64,000 bases of DNA from Haloterrigena turkmenica DSM 5511 (lineage in GTDB: Archaea > Halobacteriota > Halobacteria > Halobacteriales > Natrialbaceae). The stretch covers positions 372,001-436,000 of the forward strand of contig NC_013744.1 in assembly GCF_000025325.1 (NCBI RefSeq), given 5' to 3'. Shown here in pieces: positions 10,046 through 63,541 of this stretch (the stretch's first letter is position 1; each line of letters begins with the position of its first letter). The notes under the pieces were generated by a model. That model did no database searches and was not told the DNA's origin. It saw only the letters and a list, made by a program, of their open reading frames with translations. The translations under genes were made by a program, and so were the position numbers.

Positions 10046-10214
10046 TTGGGGTCATCAAATCAGGAGCCTACAGCGGGGCTCAGTCGTTTCACCCCCCGAA
10101 AAACAACTTCCGCTGTGAGTACCAGAAAACGGTTCACATTATTCGTGTTCGGCATTCCCGAATCGGTCAGTACAGATATATACGTGGTCGGCCGTTACTA
10201 CTTTTCTATCTCGT

Positions 10215-26966: not shown

Positions 26967-27716
26967 TCAACTAATAAACCCGTCGTCGACGCGATACACT
27001 GCGCCGTTGACGTAGGACGCCTCTTCGCTCGCGAGGAACGCAATTACGTCCGCAACCTCCGCGGGATCAGCGGCTCGTCCAGATGCGATCCGGTCGTCGG
27101 TCACTTCGCCATCATCGATGTGTTCCTCGTACAGCTGGGTATCGACGTATCCTGGCGCGACTGCGTTTACCCGGATTGATCGATCACCGAGTTCACGGGC
27201 GACTGCCCGCGTGAGCCCAATCAGACCGGCCTTGCTCGCGGCGTAATTCGCCTGCCCCGTCCACCCGCTGAGCCCCGCGACGCTAGCGACGTTAACGATT
27301 CGCCCGCCTTCGCCGCGGAGCATCCGCCGGGCTGCCTCGCGGGTACAGTAGAACGCCCCCGTCAAGTTGGTCTCGAGGACCGATGACCATTGCTCGGGAC
27401 CCATCCGAACGACTAATCCGTTGTCCATTCGTCCGGCGTTGTTGACTAGCACCGTCGGACGGCCGTGTTCGTCCGTGATTCGCTCGAAAGCCTCGATGAC
27501 CGACTCGAAGTCGCTCACGTCGAACTGTTTGACTGCGGTCGGTGCGTCGTAGGAATCGAGGGTAGCCGCGGCGTCCGCCGCAGCCTCCTCGTTCGAGTGG
27601 TAGGTAACGATTGTCCGTGCTCCGCCGGCCGCGAGGCGTTCGGCGGTCGCTAATCCGATCCCGCGGGTACCGCCGGTGACGACTGCGACCTCACCCGCGA
27701 AACGACCCTCACTCAT
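26967..27716 (-). CDS. fabG: 3-oxoacyl-[ACP] reductase-like SDR
   Basis: This 249-residue short-chain dehydrogenase should reduce 3-oxoacyl thioesters with NADPH. The cofactor motif is VAVVTGGTRGIGLATAERLA, then NNAGRMDNG, catalytic Ser in NVASVAGLSGWTG, YxxxK in NYAASKAGLIGLTRAV, and the FabG-like ending ASYVNGAVYRVDDGF. ATG 27716 has GGAGGTG upstream, and the longer frame to 27845 only reads through the KAS fragment. It is the last gene of the left arm, overlapping the truncated KAS. Next to ACP and KAS genes an acyl-ACP reductase role is likely, though the sequence alone would also fit PHA-type or other ketoreductases. Confidence 0.82.
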   Translation of the reverse strand: MSEGRFAGEVAVVTGGTRGIGLATAERLAAGGARTIVTYHSNEEAAADAAATLDSYDAPTAVKQFDVSDFESVIEAFERITDEHGRPTVLVNNAGRMDNGLVVRMGPEQWSSVLETNLTGAFYCTREAARRMLRGEGGRIVNVASVAGLSGWTGQANYAASKAGLIGLTRAVARELGDRSIRVNAVAPGYVDTQLYEEHIDDGEVTDDRIASGRAADPAEVADVIAFLASEEASYVNGAVYRVDDGFIS

Positions 27717-27930
27717 CGGGGGACACCTCCGATGTCGTGTCCCATGGGATAGGCGGTGCCTCGTCGACTTCACAGGCAATCGTCGTTCGCAGCCCTGCTT
27801 CTTCGAGGGTAAACCGGGTGATACGGCTGCCACCACGTTCTTCACTATAGAGTCTGTCCTGGGTTTCGGTTCCTATGGTTCCGAGAGGCATCACGGCGCC
27901 GAGACCGGTAATCGCGACTTCTCGTTCCAT
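27709..27930 (-). pseudogene. N-terminal fragment of beta-ketoacyl-ACP synthase
   Basis: The 73 codons align with the first 60 residues of the intact KAS at 31650: MEREVAITGLGAVMPLG against MDRDVVVTGIGMVTPLG, and RITRFTLEEAGLRTTIACEV against PITRFDPDEAAIQSRIACEI. It ends before the catalytic Cys, His and His residues, so it cannot condense. The stop overlaps the fabG start region. An internal deletion that preserved operon spacing would explain this. It could also be a retained small protein. Confidence 0.75.
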
Positions 27931-27933
27931 CAG

Positions 27934-28167
27934 TCACGCTCGCCTGACGACGTCCGCCTTGAGTTCTCCGACAGCCTTCAGATTAGCCAGATCGTCGGGA
28001 ACGTGGATCTCTACGGTCGCTTCGATGGCCTCGGTGGGCTCTACGGTGTCCAATGACACGACACCGAAATCCTCTACGAAGTGCGTCCTGTCGCCAGATC
28101 TCTCCCACTCCAGCGAGAGTCGATCGGCGACGACCTCGTTATCTGTTGATTCGACTTCGGTTGACAT
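27934..28167 (-). CDS. diverged acyl carrier protein
   Basis: The 77-residue protein aligns over its length with the ACP at 31402. Its DFGVVSLDTVEPTEAIEA corresponds to TLNVESLDIVELAEAIEA, so the serine that would carry phosphopantetheine is kept (Ser39). The aspartate of the usual DSL motif is Val, and a proline breaks the start of helix II. It may be a specialised or decaying ACP. ATG 28167 is preferred to 28194, since the shorter form matches ACP length. It lies between the MDR reductase and the KAS fragment, mirroring ACP-KAS order in the right arm. Confidence 0.65.
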   Translation of the reverse strand: MSTEVESTDNEVVADRLSLEWERSGDRTHFVEDFGVVSLDTVEPTEAIEATVEIHVPDDLANLKAVGELKADVVRRA

Positions 28168-28234
28168 ACCTATATTGTCTCCGTATATGGCCAAAAATGT
28201 TACTTTACATGGTAGATCGGAAACTGATCCTCGA

Positions 28235-29176
28235 TTACGGAACTAGCACCAGCTTGCCGCGGCTCTCTCGCTGCTGGAGGCGTCGATGTGCCTCGCTTGC
28301 CCGAGAGAAGGGGATCGTGTCTCCGACGACGACCTCGATAGAGCTATCAGAAACGGAATCAACCAGTTCCGGGATGGCCGAGAGCACCTGTTCGGGTGCG
28401 CGTTCGAGCGCCTCTTCGAGGTGATACCCGATGACCGACTTATTCTGAAAGAATAATCGCGGCGTCGCAACCGTCGGGACGCGACCGCTGGCCATCCCGT
28501 ACGTGACGATGCGCCCGCCAGGGACGAGCGCCTCGACAGCATCAGTAAACGTCCTGCCGCCGACGCCGTCTAGCGCGAGGTCGACCGATACGCCGTCGAT
28601 CGCCGAGTATTCAATGGCTCGGTTCGCGCCGAGATCGCGGACGAGATCGCGCTTCTCTTCGCTGCTCGCCGCCGCGATGACTGTCGCTCCGGCGGTAGCC
28701 GCAAGCTGGACTGCTGCCGTTCCGACGCCGCCCGCACCAGCGGTGATCAGCACGCGCTCGCCGGACCGCAACCCGCCCCATTCAAACAGCACGTTGTGTG
28801 CAGTCAACCACTGAACTGGAAGCGCAGTTCCCGAAGCGAACGAGAGCCTTTCAGGGTATGGGACGATCGCGTCGGTTGAAACGACCGTATACTCGGCGTA
28901 TCCCCCGCTGGACGTGAGTGCTGCAACGCGATCGCCGGCTGCGAGGTCGGTACCAGATCCTGTCGCCTCGACAACGCCAGCAACCTCCATCCCTGGACGG
29001 TACGGTGGAGTCGGTCCGTCAGGATAATTTCCTCGTCGCTTCTCGATGTCAGCGAAATTAACTCCTGCTGCGCGAACATCGATCCGGACCTCCCCGTCAT
29101 CGGGATCGGGAATCTCGACATCAACGAGCTCCAAGACCTCCGGACCACCGTACTCAGGAACATGAATTGCGTCCAT
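28235..29176 (-). CDS. MDR-family NADPH oxidoreductase, quinone reductase or MECR-like
   Basis: This 313-residue medium-chain dehydrogenase/reductase lacks the zinc-binding cysteines. GVNFADIEKRRGNYP and YRPGMEVAGVVEATG mark the quinone-reductase/enoyl-reductase branch. The nucleotide site is ITAGAGGVGTAAVQLA. The fragment PVQWLTAHNVLFEWGGL lines the substrate cleft. ATG 29176 is preferred (AGAGGA upstream, 1 nt after the previous stop); the frame to 29269 reads into the R2lox gene. In an ACP/KAS context the mitochondrial trans-2-enoyl reductase (MECR/Etr1), also an MDR protein, suggests an enoyl-ACP reductase role. Function as a quinone reductase is equally compatible with the sequence. Confidence 0.75.
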   Translation of the reverse strand: MDAIHVPEYGGPEVLELVDVEIPDPDDGEVRIDVRAAGVNFADIEKRRGNYPDGPTPPYRPGMEVAGVVEATGSGTDLAAGDRVAALTSSGGYAEYTVVSTDAIVPYPERLSFASGTALPVQWLTAHNVLFEWGGLRSGERVLITAGAGGVGTAAVQLAATAGATVIAAASSEEKRDLVRDLGANRAIEYSAIDGVSVDLALDGVGGRTFTDAVEALVPGGRIVTYGMASGRVPTVATPRLFFQNKSVIGYHLEEALERAPEQVLSAIPELVDSVSDSSIEVVVGDTIPFSRASEAHRRLQQRESRGKLVLVP

Positions 29177-29177
29177 A

Positions 29178-30044
29178 CTATGTCCTCTTGGATGGTACGA
29201 CTCCGACCTGTTCAAGCCGCCGGTCGCGCGCTGTGTCGATCCTGTTGAGTATCCCATTTCGGTCCGCACCTATGCTGCCATCGCGGACCATCTGGTCGAT
29301 CGTCGTCTCAACTAGTGGCACGAGTTCGTCTATCGTTTCAACAATCGTCTCCGGGTCAACGCCTTTGTCGACTAGCTTGCGAACCTTCGTCACGCCGAAG
29401 CTGACGTGCCGTCCCTCGTCGCGACGGAGGTACCTGAACCCGTTCACTAGACCTGGAAGTTCGGGGACTGCTTCGAGTTCTCCACTATATCGTGTTTCGA
29501 CCCACCTGTAGGCGGTCTGAGCGAGGATTCCTTCGACTGTGAGGTGATAGTGACAGAACGCCCGAGCACGAGTTTCGGAGGTGTCCCGTTCTAAGAGTCG
29601 GGCCATCGCATTGGACGTTCGGTCGAACAGCTCCCGATAGTCGTCGTGACTCCATCGGTCAGCCATGGGTTCAGTCGGGATGAGGCCGCGTGATTCCTCC
29701 TCCGGCCGGATAACTCTCTTCCAGTATCGATCGAACAGTTCCGTATGTCGGGCTTCGTCGTATAGCTGTGTGGCGATATAGCGCTGCTCATCGGAGCCGT
29801 CAAGGACGACTGCCAACGGTGCGAGGTCCGTGGTTACGGCCCGTTCGCCCGCTCCGAATTGTGCGAGCAGCCCGCGTAATCGAGTGAACTCAACACGAGA
29901 TAACTCACTGACTGCCTCTTGATCCGCCCTAACGTCGATCGCTGCCGGGTCCCAATGGTATTCGATTGCCGAGCGGACAAGCCGTTTGGGGTGCTCGTTC
30001 AAGCCCGATGATTCTAGAGGTGAGACGGGGGATTCCTCGGACAT
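29178..30044 (-). CDS. R2lox-like diiron protein
   Basis: This 288-residue ferritin-like helical protein has the full carboxylate/histidine set of R2-like oxidases: Glu67 (GAGERAV), Glu97 and His100 (YDEARHTELFDRYW), Glu171 (TVEGILAQTAY), Glu210 and His213 (RRDEGRHVSFG). R2lox proteins bind a mixed Mn/Fe or diiron centre with a long-chain fatty acid as ligand, and have no settled physiological role. That makes their presence in a fatty-acid-type cluster meaningful. It is probably the first gene of the left arm, coupled to the MDR gene. ATG 30044 is preferred to 30086. AurF-like N-oxygenase or desaturase activity is an alternative. Confidence 0.78.
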   Translation of the reverse strand: MSEESPVSPLESSGLNEHPKRLVRSAIEYHWDPAAIDVRADQEAVSELSRVEFTRLRGLLAQFGAGERAVTTDLAPLAVVLDGSDEQRYIATQLYDEARHTELFDRYWKRVIRPEEESRGLIPTEPMADRWSHDDYRELFDRTSNAMARLLERDTSETRARAFCHYHLTVEGILAQTAYRWVETRYSGELEAVPELPGLVNGFRYLRRDEGRHVSFGVTKVRKLVDKGVDPETIVETIDELVPLVETTIDQMVRDGSIGADRNGILNRIDTARDRRLEQVGVVPSKRT

Positions 30045-30651
30045 GTCTCTACACTCGAGAACTGTCATCAAATATGCTGTGTTCACAGCCCGTGGGAAGC
30101 CAAGGAGAGGTCCTTCCTAATTCAAGAGGATGCACCGACATAGGAGAGCGGGTTAGTCGAAATCGAGTGTGATAGGATGAAACCAATTTCAGTTTCAAAG
30201 CGTCTCTGGCGGAGGCCGTTTTCACCCCGAAGTCTCGCCGAAACCGCTCGCACATCGAGGCGGGTGATCGCCGGTACCGTGAGATAGGCGACCGAGATGA
30301 AAAGCCGGTGGCATCGAAAGATCGGACGTTACCAACAGCTCTGAGCACGTAGTTCACTCGAACTATCGGACAGCAGTGACTGTATCTCAGGGAGTGCATG
30401 GCCTACGTAGTCGAGATACATCGTCACGTGTCCGTCGAAAAACGCGCGCGTCTCTCACTATTTTCGCATTGTGTCTTCGTCTCGTCGTCGCGATCACCAA
30501 TATGAACGGAGAGATAACCCAGGCAGCACCGTCAGCACGGTGTGACGAGACTTCCGTGATACCCTCTACAGAGCGGGAAGTCTCACCTCAGTACTGGTTA
30601 AAATCACCGCCACCCCGTGGAGTTTTCTCCGAGTACACGGAATAACGATCG
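30045..30651. promoter_or_regulatory. divergent intergenic region between the two arms of the FAS-like cluster
   Basis: About 600 bp separates the left-arm start (30044) from the first right-arm ORF (30652). It should hold both promoters. A TGGTTAAAATCACC stretch near 30596-30609 is a possible TATA element for the right arm. No gene was recognised; overlapping ORFs on both strands lack motifs. Confidence 0.4.
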
Positions 30652-30957
30652 ATGGCCGCTAATGAACAGCAAGTAAAGCGGTATCAATTTGCTTCGAGTA
30701 TCGATCTCAGTGCCGCATTCTCGGTGTTGGACATCGAATATCTGACTGTTACTGAGAGTCGTGCCATTACGATCTACATCCGGTCCGTCCTCAACATCGA
30801 AACGGTAGAGGGGGATCTGGAGAACGCACGTATCCTCGACGTGGAGGTGCTAGATCGCTCCTCGAGAGTCGGAAGCGACGATCCGAACGATCTCGTCGAA
30901 ACGATGGTAGCTCAGATCAGCGACGTCGTAGGTGTTGACTTCCGAGAAATCTCGTAG
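30652..30957 (+). CDS. hypothetical protein of the FAS-like cluster
   Basis: A 101-residue acidic protein reads MAANEQQVKRYQFASSIDLS, then a likely alpha/beta fold (ITIYIRSVLNIETVEGDLEN, DVEVLDRSSRVGSDDPNDLV) and the C-terminus VVGVDFREIS. I do not recognise the family. It is codirectional with the ACP operon but separated from it by 444 bp of decayed sequence, so its link to the cluster is positional only. Confidence 0.5.
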   Translation: MAANEQQVKRYQFASSIDLSAAFSVLDIEYLTVTESRAITIYIRSVLNIETVEGDLENARILDVEVLDRSSRVGSDDPNDLVETMVAQISDVVGVDFREIS

Positions 30958-31059
30958 GCAAGCTATCGACCGATTTTGACTGGTACTCACGCCCTCACTT
31001 CGCATCGTGATGTTGGACTGGAATCAGTATTTCACTCAGCCCCGAAATATCAGAATACG

Positions 31060-31218
31060 GTCTTCGGTGTGAACTGGCGTGCGCTTCTCGAGGAACTCGA
31101 CGAACCGTTAGCAGGTGCAGAACTCGTTACGCCATCGTCACGCAGGCGGTTGTAAGACGGACAGGAACACCGTATCGTCCTCGAAATCAAAGGCGACGAC
31201 GAGAAACAGCAACTCTAA
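31060..31218 (+). pseudogene. gene relic with an in-frame stop
   Basis: The frame VFGVNWRALLEELDEPLAGA then ELVTPSSRRRL is followed by TAA, after which the same frame continues DGQEHRIVLEIKGDDEKQQL to a second stop. It has a halophile-like coding pattern with neither start nor clean end. I do not recognise the family. It probably marks an insertion or deletion scar between the 101-residue ORF and the ACP gene. The remainder of 30958-31360 shows nothing. Confidence 0.4.
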
Positions 31219-31369
31219 CGTGGGCAACGTTCCCGGACCTGCCCATCACTCGCTCACTTGCCCTGACCGAAGCAAGAGTGGCCTCTGACGGACTGATGAA
31301 TCGGGCGACCGTCAGAAAAGTCATCCTCGAGCCGTGAGGGGGTCTCGCTGTCGCCGACGATAAACGAGG

Positions 31370-31377
31370 TTATTTTA
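31370..31377 (+). promoter_or_regulatory. TATA box of the ACP-KAS-AcpS-FabD operon
   Basis: TTATTTTA is centred 28 nt before the ACP start codon, with no Shine-Dalgarno between them. This fits a leaderless haloarchaeal transcript starting at or near the ATG. Confidence 0.55.
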
Positions 31378-31401
31378 CTCGCGGATATAGAAGCACGAGA
31401 C

Positions 31402-31647
31402 ATGGTTGATACGACTGACATAGACGCGCAAATCGAAACGATCATCGCTGACAGACTACGTGTTGACCCGGACTCGTTCGACGATTCGACCGCGTTCGAG
31501 GGAGAGACGCTGAACGTCGAATCGCTCGATATCGTCGAACTCGCTGAAGCGATCGAAGCAGAACTCGGCGTCTACATCCCCGACGAGGATCTCGCGGATC
31601 TCGAGAGAGTGGGTGACCTCAAAGAGTACGTCAGAGAGCGCATCTGA
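31402..31647 (+). CDS. acpP: acyl carrier protein
   Basis: This 81-residue acidic four-helix carrier protein would be activated by transfer of 4'-phosphopantetheine to Ser41 in LNVESLDIVELAEAIEAELG, the canonical site where helix II follows. IPDEDLADLERVGDLKEYVR matches helices III and IV of bacterial ACP. ACPs are unusual in archaea. It starts the right-arm operon and sits 2 nt before the KAS gene, in the same order as the diverged ACP and KAS fragment of the left arm. The AcpS encoded two genes downstream is the obvious activating enzyme. Confidence 0.9.
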   Translation: MVDTTDIDAQIETIIADRLRVDPDSFDDSTAFEGETLNVESLDIVELAEAIEAELGVYIPDEDLADLERVGDLKEYVRERI

Positions 31648-31649
31648 GC

Positions 31650-32867
31650 ATGGACCGAGACGTCGTCGTGACCGGCATCGGTATGGTCACACCACTCGGA
31701 ATGACCGCTGACGAAACCTGGGAGGATGTGTGTGCAGGTACCACCGCCACGGGGCCAATTACGCGGTTCGATCCCGACGAAGCGGCCATTCAATCGCGGA
31801 TTGCGTGCGAAATTAATGGCAGTCTGGCGGAGCAGACGAGCAATGACCGGATCGATGACCGGACGATGGGCCGGTATACCCAGTTCGCCGTTACCGCGGC
31901 CGCGGAAGCGATCGCCGATGCCGGGTTCGATCCCGATGCGCCCTCGTGGAGACCGAGTCGAATAGCTACCAGTATCGCTTCGACGTTCGGCGGGCTTTCG
32001 GAAATCGAGGCGGCCACCGGCCAGCGTCCGTCGCCACGTTTTCTCATCACCGCACTTGCAAATCTCGCGGCCGGCCACGTTAGCATGTGTTTCGACGCAC
32101 GGGGTCCGAACCGATCACCTGGGACGGCCTGTGCAGCCGGTACTCACGCGATTGCCGATGCAGTCGCCGACATCCGAACGGGACGCGCTGACGTTGCGAT
32201 CGCCGGGGGTACCGAGGCCCCGATCACCCCGCTCGGCGTCGCGGGATTCGACGCGATGCGGGCGCTCAGCACCCGAAATGACGTGCCGGAACGAGCAAGT
32301 CGTCCGTTCGACGCCGATCGAGACGGGTTCGTCCTCGCTGAAGGGTGTGCGATTCTCGTCCTCGAAGAGCGTAGTCGTGCGGCCGAACGTGGCGTGACAC
32401 CGTATGCGGCTATTACAGGCTCCGGATTGACTGCCGATGCCCATCATCCGACACGGCCAGCGGAAGGCGGGCGTGGTCTCCAGCGGAGCCTCGAGCGCGC
32501 ACTCGAGGACGCAACTCTGGAGCCAGACGCTGTCGATCACGTGAACGCACACGGAACGAGTACACCGACCGGTGACGCCCGTGAAGCCGAGGCACTCCGG
32601 TCCGTTTTCGACACCGTGCCACCAGTCGCGAGCGTCAAAGGCGCGCTCGGTCACACGCTCAGCGGTGCTGGGGCCCTCGAGAGTGCAATCGTCGCTCTGG
32701 CGATCGCCGACCGGACGATTCCACCGACGGTGAACTATGAGACACCGGATCCGGCGTGCGATCTCCCGATCGTGACCGACGCTTGCGAGACGTCTCTCGA
32801 CGCCGTTGTGACCACGTCTGCGGGCTTCGGTGGGACTAACGGCGCGCTCGTCTTCGAGCAATCATGA
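31650..32867 (+). CDS. fabF: beta-ketoacyl-ACP synthase (KAS II type)
   Basis: The 405-residue thiolase-fold enzyme elongates acyl chains with malonyl-ACP. All active-site residues are present: Cys161 in GTACAAGTHAI, His301 in NAHGTSTPTGD, Lys330 and His335 in KGALGHTLSGAG, and the ending GFGGTNGALVF. It is therefore a working KAS rather than a chain-length factor. The length matches FabF. No FabH-type initiating enzyme is visible in the window, so initiation would have to rely on this enzyme, as in mitochondria, or on an external thiolase. It overlaps acpS by 4 nt. An N-terminal paralogue fragment lies at 27709. Confidence 0.92.
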   Translation: MDRDVVVTGIGMVTPLGMTADETWEDVCAGTTATGPITRFDPDEAAIQSRIACEINGSLAEQTSNDRIDDRTMGRYTQFAVTAAAEAIADAGFDPDAPSWRPSRIATSIASTFGGLSEIEAATGQRPSPRFLITALANLAAGHVSMCFDARGPNRSPGTACAAGTHAIADAVADIRTGRADVAIAGGTEAPITPLGVAGFDAMRALSTRNDVPERASRPFDADRDGFVLAEGCAILVLEERSRAAERGVTPYAAITGSGLTADAHHPTRPAEGGRGLQRSLERALEDATLEPDAVDHVNAHGTSTPTGDAREAEALRSVFDTVPPVASVKGALGHTLSGAGALESAIVALAIADRTIPPTVNYETPDPACDLPIVTDACETSLDAVVTTSAGFGGTNGALVFEQS

Positions 32868-33409
32868 CGATGAACGAGAGAGACGACAGGAACGACGAGA
32901 CGGCGTTTCAGATCGATTCTGACAGTGATTCTGCGCCACTCGATGAATCCCGGTTCGGGACTCGCCGAATCAGTGACGGTGACTTCGTCGTTCGACACGG
33001 CGTTGATCTCGTTTCGATCGAACGAATCGCTTCGCTTCTCGCGGAATTCGGCGAATCGTTCCAGTGCCGCGTGTTCACAGCGTCAGAGCGCACTTATTGT
33101 GAGAAGCAGGGAACGCCACCCCAGCACTATGCTGCACGGTGGGCGGCTAAAGAGGCGTTCTACAAAACACTCGATACCGAATCGCCTGCGATTCCGCTCG
33201 ATTCGATCGAGGTTATTCGTGAACGGACAGGCCCTCAGCTCAGGCTTGAACCGCCCGCCGCCAGAGCGCTTGATGAGATGCTCGACCGAAGGAACGTCTG
33301 TCCCGAGACGACAGATATTGCTGTCAGTCTAAGCCATGACCGAAGCGCTGAGTATGCCATCGGTTCCGTGACCGTCTTCGGCGTCGAAACGGGTGCCACC
33401 GATCAATGA
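32864..33409 (+). CDS. acpS: holo-ACP synthase
   Basis: This 181-residue AcpS-type phosphopantetheinyl transferase moves the 4'-phosphopantetheine of CoA to the ACP serine. The Mg2+ motif is HGVDLVSIERI (Asp48), followed by RVFTASERTYCEKQG and the family signature YAARWAAKEAFYKTL (Lys97, Glu98), ending in SLSHDRSAEYAIGSVTV. Bacterial AcpS has about 120-125 residues. Here about 40 acidic, probably disordered residues precede the core. The start overlaps the KAS stop; ATG 32870 is an alternative. With ACP, KAS and FabD in one operon, the system appears self-contained for carrier activation. Confidence 0.9.
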   Translation: MTMNERDDRNDETAFQIDSDSDSAPLDESRFGTRRISDGDFVVRHGVDLVSIERIASLLAEFGESFQCRVFTASERTYCEKQGTPPQHYAARWAAKEAFYKTLDTESPAIPLDSIEVIRERTGPQLRLEPPAARALDEMLDRRNVCPETTDIAVSLSHDRSAEYAIGSVTVFGVETGATDQ

Positions 33410-33431
33410 CTCTGAGACACACTATCAGACC

Positions 33432-34379
33432 ATGAACCAAGACGAACGAAACGCAACGCTCGCGGATACGGCGTTTATTTTCCCCGGACAGGGAAGCCAA
33501 GAATCCGGAATGGGGAAAGCGTTCTACGAGGCGTGGCCGGAGATGCAAACGGCCTTCGACCGTCTCGACAGCGCACTCGACATTGACTTATACGAACTCT
33601 GTTTTCGACGGGAGACGGAAGAACTCACGCGACCACGCAACGCTCAGCCGGCTCTCCTGGCGGCCGGATACGCGACATATGCTGGTCTCACGTCCCGGTT
33701 TGCGGTGATGCCCGCCTACGTTGCCGGCCACAGCCTAGGTCACTTCACCGCCCTCGCGGCCGCCGGCGTGGCGTCACCGACCGATCTCGTTGACGTCGTT
33801 CGTCGGCGTGGGAGATTCATGGAACGCGCCGAACGAGAGGCGGGGCCGGGGACGATGCTGGCAGTGTTGCTCGCCGACCCAGATATCGTCGCCGACGCCT
33901 GTAGAGACCGCGACGACGTGAGCGTAGCACTGTACAACGGACCGCGACAGACCGTGATCAGCGGGACTACCGAGGGAGTAGAGGCCGTTCAGGCTACACT
34001 CTCTGACTCTGCGACGGTGCGGTTCCGCGAACTCCAAGTCGGTGCGGCGTTTCATTCCCCGGTCATGGCACCCGCTGTTGACCGTCTCGAGGAGGTGTTT
34101 ACGGAGATATCACTAGAGGAGGCAACGATACCGATCGTCTCGGACGTTTCGGGGAAGGTATACACTGATCCAACTGTCGCCCGTCAGGATCTCACGAGCC
34201 AGATCACGGCGTCCGTCGACTGGGTTAGCGTTGTCGAAGAATTACAACAGCGCGGCGTCACTCGCTACGTCGAGTTCCCACCGGCTGGCGTCCTTACAAG
34301 TCTCGTTGACCGTATGCACTCAGATACCGAGTGTTACACGCTCGAGACGCCCGCTGACGCACAGGAGCTGTTCACGTGA
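33432..34379 (+). CDS. fabD: malonyl-CoA:ACP transacylase
   Basis: This 315-residue acyltransferase loads malonyl units onto ACP. FIFPGQGSQESGMGK is the N-terminal signature. The nucleophile elbow is GHSLG (Ser101 from this start). The carboxylate-binding arginine lies in VVRRRGRFM, typical of malonyl-specific enzymes, and the catalytic His208 lies in GAAFHSPVM. A GTG at 33393 would add 13 residues and overlap acpS; the ATG is preferred because the fold starts soon after it. It is the last gene of the right arm. Free malonyl-CoA from an acyl-CoA carboxylase encoded elsewhere would be needed. Confidence 0.9.
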   Translation: MNQDERNATLADTAFIFPGQGSQESGMGKAFYEAWPEMQTAFDRLDSALDIDLYELCFRRETEELTRPRNAQPALLAAGYATYAGLTSRFAVMPAYVAGHSLGHFTALAAAGVASPTDLVDVVRRRGRFMERAEREAGPGTMLAVLLADPDIVADACRDRDDVSVALYNGPRQTVISGTTEGVEAVQATLSDSATVRFRELQVGAAFHSPVMAPAVDRLEEVFTEISLEEATIPIVSDVSGKVYTDPTVARQDLTSQITASVDWVSVVEELQQRGVTRYVEFPPAGVLTSLVDRMHSDTECYTLETPADAQELFT

Positions 34380-34828
34380 TGTTCAAGTAACCCTTTCGTC
34401 GCGTCGACTCTCGCCATCGCGAAACCGACTGGCTGAACGACACTATCGCTTGATAGTTACAGTCATCGACCGATTGTATTCGATCATCACGAGAGCGATG
34501 ATCGTTCCCGGGTAATACGGCTATTATCGCTGCGGTTCCCCGAATGCGGAGTCTCCGTCGGTCTGCAACGAGTTCCGCGATTATCGACTTTCCTTAATGC
34601 GGGGAACCGTTTTCAGAGATTCATTTCCTTGAGCGAAGGGAGTAGCAAGGTGACGTGCTACATTGGCGTGCTATGTCATGATAATTGGGTGCGGGTAGGA
34701 TGCCTGCGTGTAATAGATGCCGTCAATTCATACGTATGCGTTATAATATCGATTCTCCAGATGGCAAATACATGCGGCTTCGGCAATGATCACGCACCTT
34801 TATGGGTGAGATTCGCCTTGCACTGTAT
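34380..34828. other. intergenic, promoter of the IclR gene
   Basis: No gene was recognised. At 34797-34805 CCTTTATGG is a likely TATA box placed 28 nt before ATG 34829. The ATG inside this box (34802) would extend the IclR frame but is disfavoured. Confidence 0.45.
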
Positions 34829-35587
34829 ATGCCCGATTCTGGGGACTTCGACACGCGAAAAACGACTAAAACGTCACTCGCGATCGTCGAGGCGATCAAC
34901 GATTTGGACGGTGCAACACTGACCGAACTGGCTGACTACACCGGCCTCGCGACCAGTACGTTGCACACCCATCTCAAAACGCTTGAGGAAGCAGAGTACG
35001 TAACACGCAGCGGCAACACGTACAGACTCGGGCTACATCTTTTCCACATCGGGGAAAACGCTCGCCGGCGCGATCCCAGATACACCTTGGCCAGAGATAA
35101 GGCGTTCGAGCTCTCGAACGAAGTAAACGAGGAGGTGAGTTTCGCGGTCGAAGAGTACGGGCGGTCGATTATCCTATACGATGAAACGCCGGTGCCGTCG
35201 GACACTGGTTTTCAGGTCGGTCGCTACTTCCATATGCACAGTTCGGCGAGCGGAAAAGCGATGCTCGCAGCGTTCTCGACGGAACGGGTCTATGAAATCG
35301 TCGACAAGTGGGGCCTCCCAGAGTATACTGAGAATACGATCACCAACGTCGATGAGCTGTTCGACGAACTCGAGCGAGTCCGCGAGCAAGGATATGCGGT
35401 GAACCGACAGGAAGAACTCGAGGGGTTGTACTCGGTCGCGATGGTGATCAACAATCCGGACGGCTCAGTCTTCGGTTCGATGGACATCTCGGGACCCCCG
35501 TATCGTCTTCCCGAAGATAGCGAAATCGCCGCACAGTTGCGCCCCGTCGTTGGTGAACTCGAGTCGAAGCTCGAGAAGCGCGATTGA
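34829..35587 (+). CDS. IclR-family transcriptional regulator
   Basis: This 252-residue regulator has an N-terminal winged helix (TSLAIVEAINDLDGATLTEL, then GLATSTLHTHLKTLEEAEYV) and a C-terminal IclR effector domain at about residues 75-250 (GRYFHMHSSASGKAMLAAF, SVAMVINNPDGSVFGSMDIS). IclR proteins typically control catabolic operons in response to a small molecule. The neighbouring threonine dehydratase and glycine-cleavage genes are the natural targets. Two copies of a candidate operator (35588, 35648) lie directly downstream. The start at 34829 is chosen for its distance from the TATA box. Confidence 0.85.
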   Translation: MPDSGDFDTRKTTKTSLAIVEAINDLDGATLTELADYTGLATSTLHTHLKTLEEAEYVTRSGNTYRLGLHLFHIGENARRRDPRYTLARDKAFELSNEVNEEVSFAVEEYGRSIILYDETPVPSDTGFQVGRYFHMHSSASGKAMLAAFSTERVYEIVDKWGLPEYTENTITNVDELFDELERVREQGYAVNRQEELEGLYSVAMVINNPDGSVFGSMDISGPPYRLPEDSEIAAQLRPVVGELESKLEKRD

Positions 35588-35609
35588 TTTACATAAGTAC
35601 TAGTGTAAA
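35588..35609. promoter_or_regulatory. candidate operator, copy 1
   Basis: TTTACATAAGTACTAGTGTA AA is an inverted repeat (TTTACA...TGTAAA). It shares its layout with the copy exactly 60 bp downstream. It overlaps the 3' end region of the IclR gene and precedes the dehydratase gene. Confidence 0.45.
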
Positions 35610-35647
35610 TGCTCCAACGACGGTGGTCTCTTCGGGAGCGCGATAAC

Positions 35648-35669
35648 TTTACGACAGTACCGATGTAAT
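35648..35669. promoter_or_regulatory. candidate operator, copy 2
   Basis: TTTACGACAGTACCGATGTA AT matches copy 1 at the outer TTTAC and TGTAA and at the central AGTAC. The 60-bp spacing and same orientation suggest paired protein-binding sites. The IclR protein encoded next door is the first candidate. Confidence 0.4.
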
Positions 35670-35953
35670 GGAACTACCAACATTCCTCTCCTTGTCTGAG
35701 AGCAGCTGTATTTCTCCAATATGGGGAATTTTCCAGTTTGGGGATCTTCATCGCGGCACGTTATCCGGTGTCTGCTGGACGATCTGCTACCGATGGAGTG
35801 CACAAACTATATTGATGATCATACCTCCTCAGAACAAGCCAGTATACGGGGAGCAGAGAGAGACGGTCTATCCGACCACTAAATATAAGAATCGACGGCC
35901 AGAGATTTAGCAACAGCGAGCGATTCCAGGAACCTCGCACCAGATCGCAAGCC
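35670..35953 (+). promoter_or_regulatory. promoter region of threonine dehydratase
   Basis: ACTAAATATAAG at 35878-35889 is a likely TATA box. It would give a transcript with a 5' leader of about 40-45 nt before ATG 35954. No gene was recognised. Confidence 0.4.
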
Positions 35954-37180
35954 ATGACTGTAACTCTCACTGACATCGAGGAAGCCCGAATCCGGTTAGA
36001 CGACGAATCAGCCGTTCAGCAGACCCCTATAGACACGAGTCGTTCACTCGAGGCGGAGACCGGTGCAACGGTTCTCCTCAAAATGGAGCACTTGCAGCGG
36101 ACCGGATCGTTCAAAGCTCGCGGCGCGTACAACAAGCTCAGACAGGTCGCCGAATCGGATCGCGAAGCCACGAGAGCGATCGCAGCGAGCGCCGGTAACC
36201 ACGCCCAAGGGGTCGCTCTCGCCGCTACGAAAACCGGTCTGGAATCGACCATCGTCATGCCCAAGAGCGCCCCACAGGCGAAGATAGACGCCACGGCCGA
36301 GTACGGGGCGAACGTCGAACTGCACGGACACGATTTTCGCGATGCGATGGCCTATGCGAAGTCGATCGTCGACGATGACAGCCTCTTCATCCACGCTTAC
36401 GACGATCCGCAGATCGTCGCTGGCCAGGGGACGGTGGGTCTCGAAATCCTCGAGCAGGTCCCGGATGTCCAGACAGTTGTCGTTCCGATCGGTGGCGGAG
36501 GGTTGATCGGCGGTATCGCGACCGCTATCAAGGAGCGATCGCCGGAGACGCGCGTGATCGGAGTTCAAGCCGAAGGGGCTGCTACCGTCCCGCAGAGCCT
36601 CGACAAGGGACAACCCCAGTCCGCCGAGACGGTTCAGACCATCGCCGACGGGATCGCTACCGGTGGAATTTCCCGACTCACGTACGAGTTGATCGACGAG
36701 TACGTGGACGAGGTAGTCACCGTCTCGGACACCGAGATCTCGGAGGCCATACTGTTCCTCCTGGAGCGAACGAAACAGATGGTCGAAGCGGCGGGCGCTA
36801 CGTCCGTCGCGGCGATCTGTAGCGACGAGGTCGACGTGAGAGACGAAACCGTCGTTCCGGTTCTCAGCGGGGGGAACCTCGGGTTGACGGACCTCCAGAC
36901 CGTGCTCACGCACGGACTGACATACCGGGATCAGCTCGTTCGGCTGCGAGTGCGGATCACGGACAACCCCGGGAAGATGGCAGACACCTCCGAAATAATC
37001 GCGAGTCACGGCGTCAACATCCACGACGTGAGCCACGAGCGGTCGGTCAAAGAGCTGAACGTCGGGGAAGCATACCTAGACTTCCGCATCGAGACGAACG
37101 GAGCCGATCAGACGAACCGTGTTATCGATTCGCTCCGCGAGGAGGGCTATACCGTCGCTCGGGTAAGAGACGAGTGCTAG
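35954..37180 (+). CDS. ilvA: threonine ammonia-lyase (threonine/serine dehydratase)
   Basis: The 408-residue PLP enzyme deaminates threonine to 2-oxobutyrate and usually serine to pyruvate. The PLP lysine is Lys54 in RTGSFKARGAYNK. The phosphate loop is VVVPIGGGGLIGGIA, and SAGNHAQGVALAA is also typical. A C-terminal ACT domain (about 325-405, LVRLRVRITDNPGKMADTSE) suggests amino-acid control. Its setting beside glycine cleavage, GlyA and RidA points to catabolism of serine/threonine rather than isoleucine synthesis alone. It is codirectional with gcvT, 58 nt upstream of it, but gcvT has its own promoter signal. Confidence 0.9.
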   Translation: MTVTLTDIEEARIRLDDESAVQQTPIDTSRSLEAETGATVLLKMEHLQRTGSFKARGAYNKLRQVAESDREATRAIAASAGNHAQGVALAATKTGLESTIVMPKSAPQAKIDATAEYGANVELHGHDFRDAMAYAKSIVDDDSLFIHAYDDPQIVAGQGTVGLEILEQVPDVQTVVVPIGGGGLIGGIATAIKERSPETRVIGVQAEGAATVPQSLDKGQPQSAETVQTIADGIATGGISRLTYELIDEYVDEVVTVSDTEISEAILFLLERTKQMVEAAGATSVAAICSDEVDVRDETVVPVLSGGNLGLTDLQTVLTHGLTYRDQLVRLRVRITDNPGKMADTSEIIASHGVNIHDVSHERSVKELNVGEAYLDFRIETNGADQTNRVIDSLREEGYTVARVRDEC

Positions 37181-63058: not shown

Positions 63059-63541
63059 TTACCTACCATCACCCTGATTCTCGGTGTCACGTCGTTCGAC
63101 CAGTTCGCGATTCTTGAGCGAGAGCACTTCGGTTCCGGACTGATTCGTTACCGAGATTCGTTCGCGGACGATTCCAGTGGTCGGATCGCCCTCGGACGGT
63201 TGCGTTTCGAGGATCGTCGTCTCTACGGAAAGAGTATCCCCCGGCCGAACCGGTTCGTGCCAGCGAACGTCGTCGATTCCGAGACCGGCGATGACGGCTC
63301 GCTCGCTCCGGACTTCGTCGACAAGACGTCGAACCGATAGGGAAAGTGTGTGGTATCCGCTAGCGATGAGGCCATCGAACCGGCTTTCCGTTGCCGCCTC
63401 CGGATCGGTATGAATCTCGAGCGGATCGAACTGCCGTGCAAACTTGACGATGTCGTCTGCCGAGACCGTTACTTCACCGCAGTCGATCGTTCGTTCCCGG
63501 ATATCCTCGAGATATCGAGTTTCGCTCTCTGAATCGGTCAT
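63059..63541 (-). CDS. MaoC-family (R)-specific enoyl hydratase
   Basis: The 160-residue hotdog hydratase has the catalytic pair, Asp39 and His44 in KFARQFDPLEIHTDPEAA, followed by FDGLIASGYHTLSLSVRRLV. The fold closes with IDDVRWHEPVRPGDTLSVET. It should hydrate trans-2-enoyl thioesters to (R)-3-hydroxyacyl thioesters. It could act on CoA esters or, as in mitochondrial FAS, dehydrate 3-hydroxyacyl-ACP. A plausible minus-strand TATA (CGTTAACTT, about 29 nt upstream) exists. Confidence 0.88.
   Translation of the reverse strand: MTDSESETRYLEDIRERTIDCGEVTVSADDIVKFARQFDPLEIHTDPEAATESRFDGLIASGYHTLSLSVRRLVDEVRSERAVIAGLGIDDVRWHEPVRPGDTLSVETTILETQPSEGDPTTGIVRERISVTNQSGTEVLSLKNRELVERRDTENQGDGR

Follow-up and report, generated by a model that had tools for sequence, protein, structure and literature searches.

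The largest plasmid of the haloarchaeon Haloterrigena turkmenica DSM 5511 carries a cluster of bacterial-type genes for acyl chain synthesis whose divergent layout appears to be a chimaera of two haloarchaeal operon lineages. The stretch analysed here, called the window, comprises 64,000 nucleotides (positions 372,001 to 436,000 of contig NC_013744.1), and the cluster lies at positions 26967-34379 of it. We consider it probable (roughly 0.6) that the cluster encodes a plasmid-borne, reductive type II synthase working on an acyl carrier protein (ACP), with the chain oxidised by an R2-like ligand-binding oxidase (R2lox), and that in H. turkmenica this system is chimaeric. The contig (698,495 bp of a genome of 5,440,782 bp) is the largest plasmid, presumably the one known as pHTUR01. 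For H. turkmenica 4k(T), a genome of 5,440,782 bp with a chromosome of 3,889,038 bp and six plasmids of 15.8 to 698.5 kbp has been described (PMC3035258).

An earlier note, made from the letters of the window, had described the cluster as a self-contained, laterally acquired type II fatty acid or polyketide pathway in two divergent operons. Every gene that it listed is present, as an open reading frame (ORF) with Pfam or NCBIfam profile matches, and its general claim, an ACP-dependent, bacterial-type acyl chain gene set in a haloarchaeon, is supported by the protein families and the conserved residues. The genes are as follows, with arm B on the minus strand and arm A on the plus strand (KAS, beta-ketoacyl-ACP synthase; MDR, medium-chain dehydrogenase/reductase).

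26967-27716, minus strand: FabG-type 3-ketoacyl-ACP reductase, arm B (TIGR01830 8.5e-75, below the equivalog cut-off; NF009466 over cut-off)
27709-27930, minus strand: N-terminal KAS fragment, relic of arm B (PF00109 0.0038; fabF 3.4e-6)
27934-28167, minus strand: divergent ACP (ACP2), relic of arm B (no Pfam match; NCBIfam ACP 2.6e-8, below cut-off)
28235-29176, minus strand: MDR reductase of the quinone-oxidoreductase type, candidate enoyl reductase, arm B (TIGR02824 1.1e-72, below cut-off)
29178-30044, minus strand: R2lox, arm B (R2lox models with E down to 4.2e-38, below curated cut-offs)
31402-31647, plus strand: ACP1, likely the working copy, with the serine in a VESLD motif (PF00550 3.5e-11)
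31650-32867, plus strand: KAS of the FabF type, arm A (TIGR03150 fabF 5e-130, below cut-off; NF005589 over cut-off)
32864-33409, plus strand: holo-ACP synthase AcpS with an N-terminal extension, arm A by position (TIGR00556 4.2e-17, over cut-off)
33432-34379 (alternative GTG start at 33393), plus strand: malonyl-CoA:ACP transacylase FabD, arm A (TIGR00128 1.6e-74, just below cut-off)

The gaps between ACP1, KAS, AcpS and FabD are at most 22 bases, and on the minus strand ACP2, the KAS fragment and FabG are nearly contiguous or overlapping. Curated Pfam cut-offs were passed by ACP1, KAS, AcpS, FabD, FabG and the MDR and R2-family matches. Those of NCBIfam were passed by NF005589 (KAS), TIGR00556 (AcpS) and NF009466 (FabG); its equivalog cut-offs were missed by ACP1, by TIGR03150, TIGR00128 and TIGR01830, and by every R2lox and MDR model listed.

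Residue positions were taken from alignments to solved structures, and for the roles of the aligned active-site residues and the numbering of the R2lox ligands we presume the customary assignments. KAS aligns over its full length with FabF structures, and the catalytic Cys, both His and the Lys are all present, as first claimed; the fabF model scores far above polyketide synthase (PKS) models. A relationship to thiolases, which was to have spoken against the original proposal, is ruled out by the FabF-type profile match and the alignment to FabF structures. FabD retains the Ser of the GHSLG motif, the Arg and the His of malonyl transacylases when aligned to 2cuy, and here too the first description holds. 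The Asp and Glu/Lys motifs of AcpS align with the phosphopantetheinyl transferase domain of a fungal fatty acid synthase (FAS), and the matches of AcpS include bacterial structures of the same enzyme. Three hallmarks of a type II FAS are thus in place: a separate ACP with a phosphopantetheine serine and a transferase predicted, from family and alignment, to modify it; a malonyl transacylase and a KAS with intact catalytic residues; and a ketoreductase, FabG (NF009466 over cut-off). The pair of KS-alpha and chain-length factor that marks type II PKS was not found, the genome holding one full-length KAS. The MDR protein has mitochondrial enoyl reductases and the enoyl reductase domains of PKS among its matches, a similarity from which a role as enoyl-ACP reductase is predicted. 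The nearest PDB structure to R2lox is 4hr0 (6.6e-26); in the alignment to this structure and in all 19 haloarchaeal rows, the six metal ligands (Glu/His pattern) and the Val and Tyr positions of the predicted ether cross-link are conserved, although the best NCBIfam R2lox model gives 131.4 bits, under its cut-off of 194.

The two arms have different nearest relatives. In arm B, the identities to Natrinema sp. SYSU A 869 (locus L168) exceed those to genome G242 (locus L104): 71% vs 54% for MDR, 82% vs 67% for FabG, 58% vs 43% for ACP2 and 63% vs 37% for the KAS fragment. The reverse is seen in arm A, with 56% vs 70% for ACP1, 55% vs 83% for KAS and 57% vs 76% for FabD. R2lox is 71% identical to that of Natrinema sp. 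SYSU A 869 (over 154 residues), 57% to that of genome G029 and 48% to that of Natronorubrum bangense (locus L023). AcpS is 52% identical to the Natrinema protein and 61-65% to those of G242, N. bangense and locus L112 (63% to L112). The same division appears in the trees, where the H. turkmenica MDR and FabG join those of Natrinema sp. SYSU A 869 and G029, R2lox joins that of G029 and also that of Natrinema sp. SYSU A 869, and KAS and FabD join those of G242 and N. bangense (100/99 for FabD). In approximately unbiased (AU) tests, for groups picked after trees and identities had been inspected, placement with the arm A lineage was rejected for FabG (p-AU 1.4e-66), MDR (1.9e-4) and R2lox (4.9e-8), and placement with the arm B lineage for KAS (7.7e-3) and FabD (1.6e-4). 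The divergent layout is a chimaera of two haloarchaeal operon lineages, one represented by R2lox, MDR and FabG and the other by KAS and FabD. On the basis of identities and AU tests we reject the idea that the arms are a single operon, part of which was inverted. The two divergent operons originally described do exist as arms on opposite strands; they are in fact two half-operons of different ancestry.

A scar of this history remains in arm B. The KAS fragment consists of the first ~63 codons of an arm B KAS and a short tail that overlaps the start of FabG, and it groups with the KAS of Natrinema sp. SYSU A 869 (100/93) and then with that of L112 (100/100). The ends of the deletion could be mapped: window position 27740 corresponds to position 10191 of the Natrinema locus and 27692 to 12674, so that 47 bp here stand against 2,482 bp there. 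The missing ~2.4 kb held the KAS gene from codon ~64 onwards, the genes for AcpS and FabD, and the leader of FabG. Haloterrigena sp. KLK7 (locus L103) has the same cluster layout, and in comparison with it the ratio of nonsynonymous to synonymous substitution rates (dN/dS) reaches 0.86 in ACP2 and 0.65 in the KAS fragment, against 0.09 for FabG, 0.26 for MDR, 0.28 for R2lox, 0.19 for KAS and 0.29 for FabD; the ACP1 protein is identical, with one synonymous and no nonsynonymous change. The changes in the two relics are consistent with neutrality (binomial P=0.235) and richer in nonsynonymous ones than those of FabG, MDR and R2lox together (P=6.4e-5) or of the plus-strand arm (P=0.0037). ACP2 and the KAS fragment are, therefore, the decaying scar of the KAS-AcpS-FabD part that the arm B lineage lost here; translational coupling to FabG, which starts inside the end of the fragment, may preserve the remnant. 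These dN/dS values and neutrality tests led us to reject ACP2 as a second working carrier and the fragment as a stub resembling a chain-length factor: both exist as described before, and as working parts of the pathway they do not stand, given their dN/dS, lineage and the mapped deletion. That they nonetheless have a function as short proteins, such as that of a decoy carrier or of a docking stub, is improbable. Both frames are free of stops and gaps in H. turkmenica and KLK7, and the KLK7 annotation has ACP2 as a phosphopantetheine-binding protein (the fragment is not annotated), but the changes fit neutrality and are relaxed relative to FabG, MDR and R2lox. The open frames prove little because the chance of zero stops after the 57 changes in the relics is 0.21. 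The acidic residue preceding the serine of ACP2, retained in KLK7, is Val in H. turkmenica; its loss alone is not decisive, since it is also absent from the presumed working ACPs of loci L118 and L167.

The distribution of the operon in the haloarchaea is patchy. KAS was found in 16 of 391 Halobacteria genomes (E<=1e-10; H. turkmenica included), and in a draw across the phylum a match at 1e-20 occurred in 4 of 392 genomes, two of them haloarchaea (H. turkmenica and G029) and two not (G487 and G664), the KAS of the latter falling outside the haloarchaeal clade. A collection that contains plasmids only yielded six records with KAS at 1e-100, all haloarchaeal. Plasmid location thus seems common but not general, since the KAS of G029 lies on a contig of 3.08 Mb and the collection is confined to plasmids. 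Around the 20 haloarchaeal KAS loci compared (the window included; neighbours found by tblastn), ACP, AcpS, FabD and FabG are all present in 17, a match to MDR in 15 (one weak, 32%) and R2lox in 8. With these counts the survey of Halobacteria that the earlier note had proposed shows a conserved core of four partners near KAS. The usual order is ACP-KAS-AcpS-FabD-FabG, with MDR often and R2lox sometimes placed in front. Haloferax mediterranei ATCC 33500 carries the same seven genes on pHME505 (E6P09_RS15840-15870) in the order R2lox-MDR-ACP-KAS-AcpS-FabD-FabG, all in one direction; this operon is single and unbroken, without relic or divergence, in contrast to the divergent H. turkmenica cluster with its scar. 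On a plasmid of Natrinema sp. SYSU A 869, seven genes of the arm B lineage also run in one direction, resembling arm B of H. turkmenica except that KAS, AcpS and FabD are retained.

In the KAS tree, 20 haloarchaeal loci fall on one side of a branch with 100/100 support, against 39 of 78 bacterial loci, although the bootstrap of this tree was not fully settled (0.989). When four plasmid records, the sequences of two further archaea and two fragments were added to the set (26 bacterial rows), a haloarchaeal clade was again obtained (100/99; 100/100 without the fragments), and in the FabD tree 18 haloarchaeal rows stay together (100/99) against 29 bacterial rows. Of the phylogenies by which the earlier note meant to check its proposal, those of KAS and FabD were run against bacteria and each shows one haloarchaeal clade apart from the sampled bacteria. 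No bacterial donor was found, no bacterial row lying inside the haloarchaeal clade of either tree; the bacterial sample was drawn from the best 80 of at least 555 confirmed KAS relatives. Within the clade, families are mixed, with G242 (family f7) beside Haloterrigena, which indicates transfer among haloarchaea. We propose that the cluster, of bacterial type, has long been resident in the haloarchaea: of the supposed lateral acquisition, the patchy distribution fits transfer, whereas a recent gain from bacteria is unsupported by the deep single clades of KAS and FabD. Bacterial type II FAS shares with this set five common families (FabF, FabD, FabG, ACP and AcpS), their conserved active-site residues and the adjacency of the genes; the H. 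turkmenica set differs in that no FabH or FabA/FabZ was found, in the addition of MDR and R2lox, and in its separate haloarchaeal clade.

The link with R2lox may bear on what becomes of the chain. The FAS-linked R2lox proteins and that of a detached R2lox-MDR pair in G029 fall together as one starred set (98/95), opposed to 27 other haloarchaeal rows, in a tree from the 30 best-scoring loci, from which three duplicates were removed and in which two rows are one gene. In the sequence retrieved on either side of the 78 bacterial KAS genes, R2lox had no match at 1e-6, so its pairing with these genes looks haloarchaeal. R2lox has been reported to bind a fatty acid (PMC6399176), and GkR2loxI of Geobacillus, on the basis of tests with E. 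coli lysates, to be an alkane hydroxylase (PMC10867098), for which reasons an acyl chain would be a reasonable substrate here. GkR2loxI (4hr0) shares the metal ligands and the Val/Tyr cross-link positions with the H. turkmenica protein; it is reported to be encoded beside alcohol- and aldehyde-metabolising genes (PMC10867098), whereas the latter is encoded with genes for acyl-ACP synthesis. A second R2lox, 50% identical, is located on another contig of the H. turkmenica genome (G000:C5:24262-24972), with no match to the other cluster proteins within 19 kb around it.

In the whole genome, ACP1 gives the sole match to PF00550 and the AcpS of the cluster the sole match to PF01648. One full-length KAS-type protein and the 73-aa fragment are encoded, the remaining matches being weak and in the thiolase range. 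A FabH-type initiating synthase is not present in every type II FAS; here the single match to PF08541 is below cut-off, and the lack of a visible FabH noted for the cluster extends to the entire genome. Two carboxyltransferases could supply malonyl-CoA. FabA/FabZ (PF07977) had no match in the genome, 9 of 14 control genomes being positive. There are 15 MaoC-type matches, 14 over cut-off, as candidate suppliers of the missing dehydratase, including one in the window:

63059-63541, minus strand: MaoC-type hotdog hydratase, ORF, unlinked to the cluster (PF01575 at G000:C2:435191-435478)

A MaoC-type enzyme is the likeliest dehydratase because the deep relative L119 (3474-15422) carries one in the same stretch, together with an alpha/beta hydrolase, a cupin, FabG, FabD, an SDR protein, ACP, KAS, an AcpS-like ORF (recognised by eye), a weak MDR match, a second FabD and a carboxyltransferase. 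To call the pathway self-contained was too strong, since the cluster lacks a dehydratase and the genome offers MaoC-type candidates but no FabA/FabZ.

Whereas the gene identities, the conserved residues, the two ancestries and the relics described above are shown by the analysis, each catalytic step of the following scheme is inferred, and with it the MaoC supply, the starter, the chain length and the substrate of R2lox. AcpS would attach phosphopantetheine to ACP1 and FabD would load malonyl groups. The single FabF-type KAS would condense them and, because no FabH was found, probably makes its own starter by decarboxylation of malonyl-ACP. The keto group would be reduced by FabG, the product dehydrated by a MaoC-type hydratase encoded elsewhere in the genome, and the MDR protein would serve as enoyl reductase; R2lox may then oxidise the chain by hydroxylation or desaturation. 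As to its history, the two operon lineages presumably met on one replicon and complementary loss followed, the order of the losses being our reconstruction. A broader form of this idea is offered tentatively, as possible rather than likely: a dedicated R2lox oxidises the chain on ACP or just after its release, giving an oxidised acyl compound, and the system is passed on as exchangeable half-operons, open to recombination across lineages with complementary loss.

Several observations weigh against the proposed synthase and its chimaeric history. The cluster contains no dehydratase gene, and a MaoC-like gene lies near KAS in just 1 of 23 loci (L119; a single MaoC query was used), so an unlinked gene is needed to complete the reductive cycle. 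Of the 20 loci, 5 have no MDR near KAS and 12 no R2lox, and neither is obligatory. Conversely, R2lox occurs in 132 of the 391 Halobacteria genomes vs 16 with KAS, which means that most R2lox proteins are unlinked to these genes. R2lox, MDR, ACP1 and FabD score under the NCBIfam cut-offs, as would be expected of distant family members. As for the chimaera, support for the donor groups of KAS (89/94) and FabG (94/94) is not starred, and the lineage of AcpS is told neither by its own tree nor by its identities; its dN/dS of 0.46 against KLK7 comes from three nonsynonymous and two synonymous changes, too few to judge selection.

The patchy, accessory distribution (16 of 391 genomes) would also suit a small polyketide or lipid-tail pathway of secondary metabolism, with an only partly reduced chain attached to a head group such as a peptide or a sugar. 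The absence of MDR near KAS in 5 of the 20 loci fits this, as do a LanM-like protein (DUF4135 and LANC-like domains) ~1 kb from the ACP gene in L113 and a protein of the same BLAST group ~5 kb from KAS in L115/L116. However, KAS scores far better with fabF than with PKS models, and no conserved tailoring gene emerged from 84 neighbour proteins of 15 loci, among which no Pfam family matched more than three (genes from an ORF script; L103, L106, L107, L116 and the window, as near-duplicates or lacking the operon, set aside). We regard such a pathway as unlikely, though a serious contender.

In Haloferax mediterranei, phaC ends ~2 kb upstream of the seven-gene operon on pHME505, which would agree with a role in providing polyhydroxyalkanoate (PHA) synthesis with 3-hydroxyacyl monomers or with precursors derived from malonyl groups. 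However, phaC is not annotated in the corresponding stretches of KLK7, Haloarcula sp. JP-L23, Halomontanus rarus, Natrinema sp. SYSU A 869 and N. bangense, according to an incomplete gene table, and haloarchaeal PHA precursors are CoA-linked; this role seems quite improbable. A single KAS, ACP, AcpS and an MDR-type reductase recall the mitochondrial set, and the MDR matches include mitochondrial enoyl reductases, so that octanoyl-ACP for lipoate or another shared cofactor comes to mind as a product. In 375 of the 391 Halobacteria genomes KAS is without a match at E<=1e-10, so such a pathway answers no general need, and we consider this very improbable. The reductive acyl-ACP synthase with an associated R2lox remains our preferred reading.

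Archaea are isoprenoid-lipid organisms that build their membranes without acyl-ACP chemistry. Transferred ACP systems in archaea are already known in outline: a few unrelated archaea carry ACP, ACP synthase and malonyl transacylase through transfer, and archaeal fatty acid synthesis has been proposed to be ACP-independent (PMC3533463, the former citing Lombard et al. 2012). The same three proteins are found here, whereas the part of that source available to us gives no operon, R2lox partner, haloarchaeal clade or chimaera. Among the matches listed in our search of the open-access literature, outside which most subscription papers fall, we found neither the operon with R2lox nor the chimaera described. 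A conserved ACP operon in cultivated haloarchaea such as Haloferax mediterranei makes archaeal use of ACP directly testable, and through the link with R2lox a family of oxidases of unclear role gains a candidate natural substrate. The two-lineage chimaera and its scar illustrate clearly how complementary loss can rebuild a single pathway out of two operons. If the broader form of our proposal is true, R2lox gains a genome-encoded supply of its natural substrate, and the product would be an oxidised acyl compound (a signal, membrane additive or metabolite tail) of a kind undescribed in archaea.

Some further observations concern the relatives of the cluster and its surroundings. In Natrinema sp. 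SYSU A 869 (L168 7876-13396), the matches to R2lox and to KAS are each divided over different frames, and the annotation places FabD and FabG in a single open frame; these oddities are frame errors, decay or a real fusion. An operon stretch of 17,209 bp in Natronorubrum bangense JCM 10635 is identical in a chromosome and a plasmid record (L023 2001-19209, L169 1-17209), by recent duplication or as a matter of assembly. Between the two arms of the window, an ORF of 101 aa (30652-30957) is 99% conserved in KLK7, with a dN/dS of 0.06 (six changes) and no Pfam or NCBIfam match; for the intergenic stretch 30950-31400, reading all six frames gave no clear explanation. Downstream of FabD lies a regulatory gene:

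34802-35587, plus strand: IclR-family regulator beside the cluster, link to the cluster unproven (97% identical copy beside the cluster in KLK7)

It accompanies the cluster in H. turkmenica, KLK7 and G368, next to genes for threonine dehydratase and glycine cleavage (window 34802-37180), the association in G368 (L109 14233-17658) being assigned by BLAST group and the geometry differing between the three genomes. An IclR gene (E<=1e-70) lies within ~20 kb of KAS on the same contig in 4 of 5 genomes with both; the copy of G242 is at G242:C8:130545-131285. Finally, two genomes have genes for LanM-like lanthionine synthetases at ~1 to 5 kb from their KAS clusters (L113 4997-8239; L115 15508-18633; L116 2008-5133), identified by a domain scan in L113 and by a shared BLAST group in L115 and L116; luciferase-like monooxygenase and transporter genes are nearby, and these neighbourhoods possibly represent an acyl-bearing peptide pathway.

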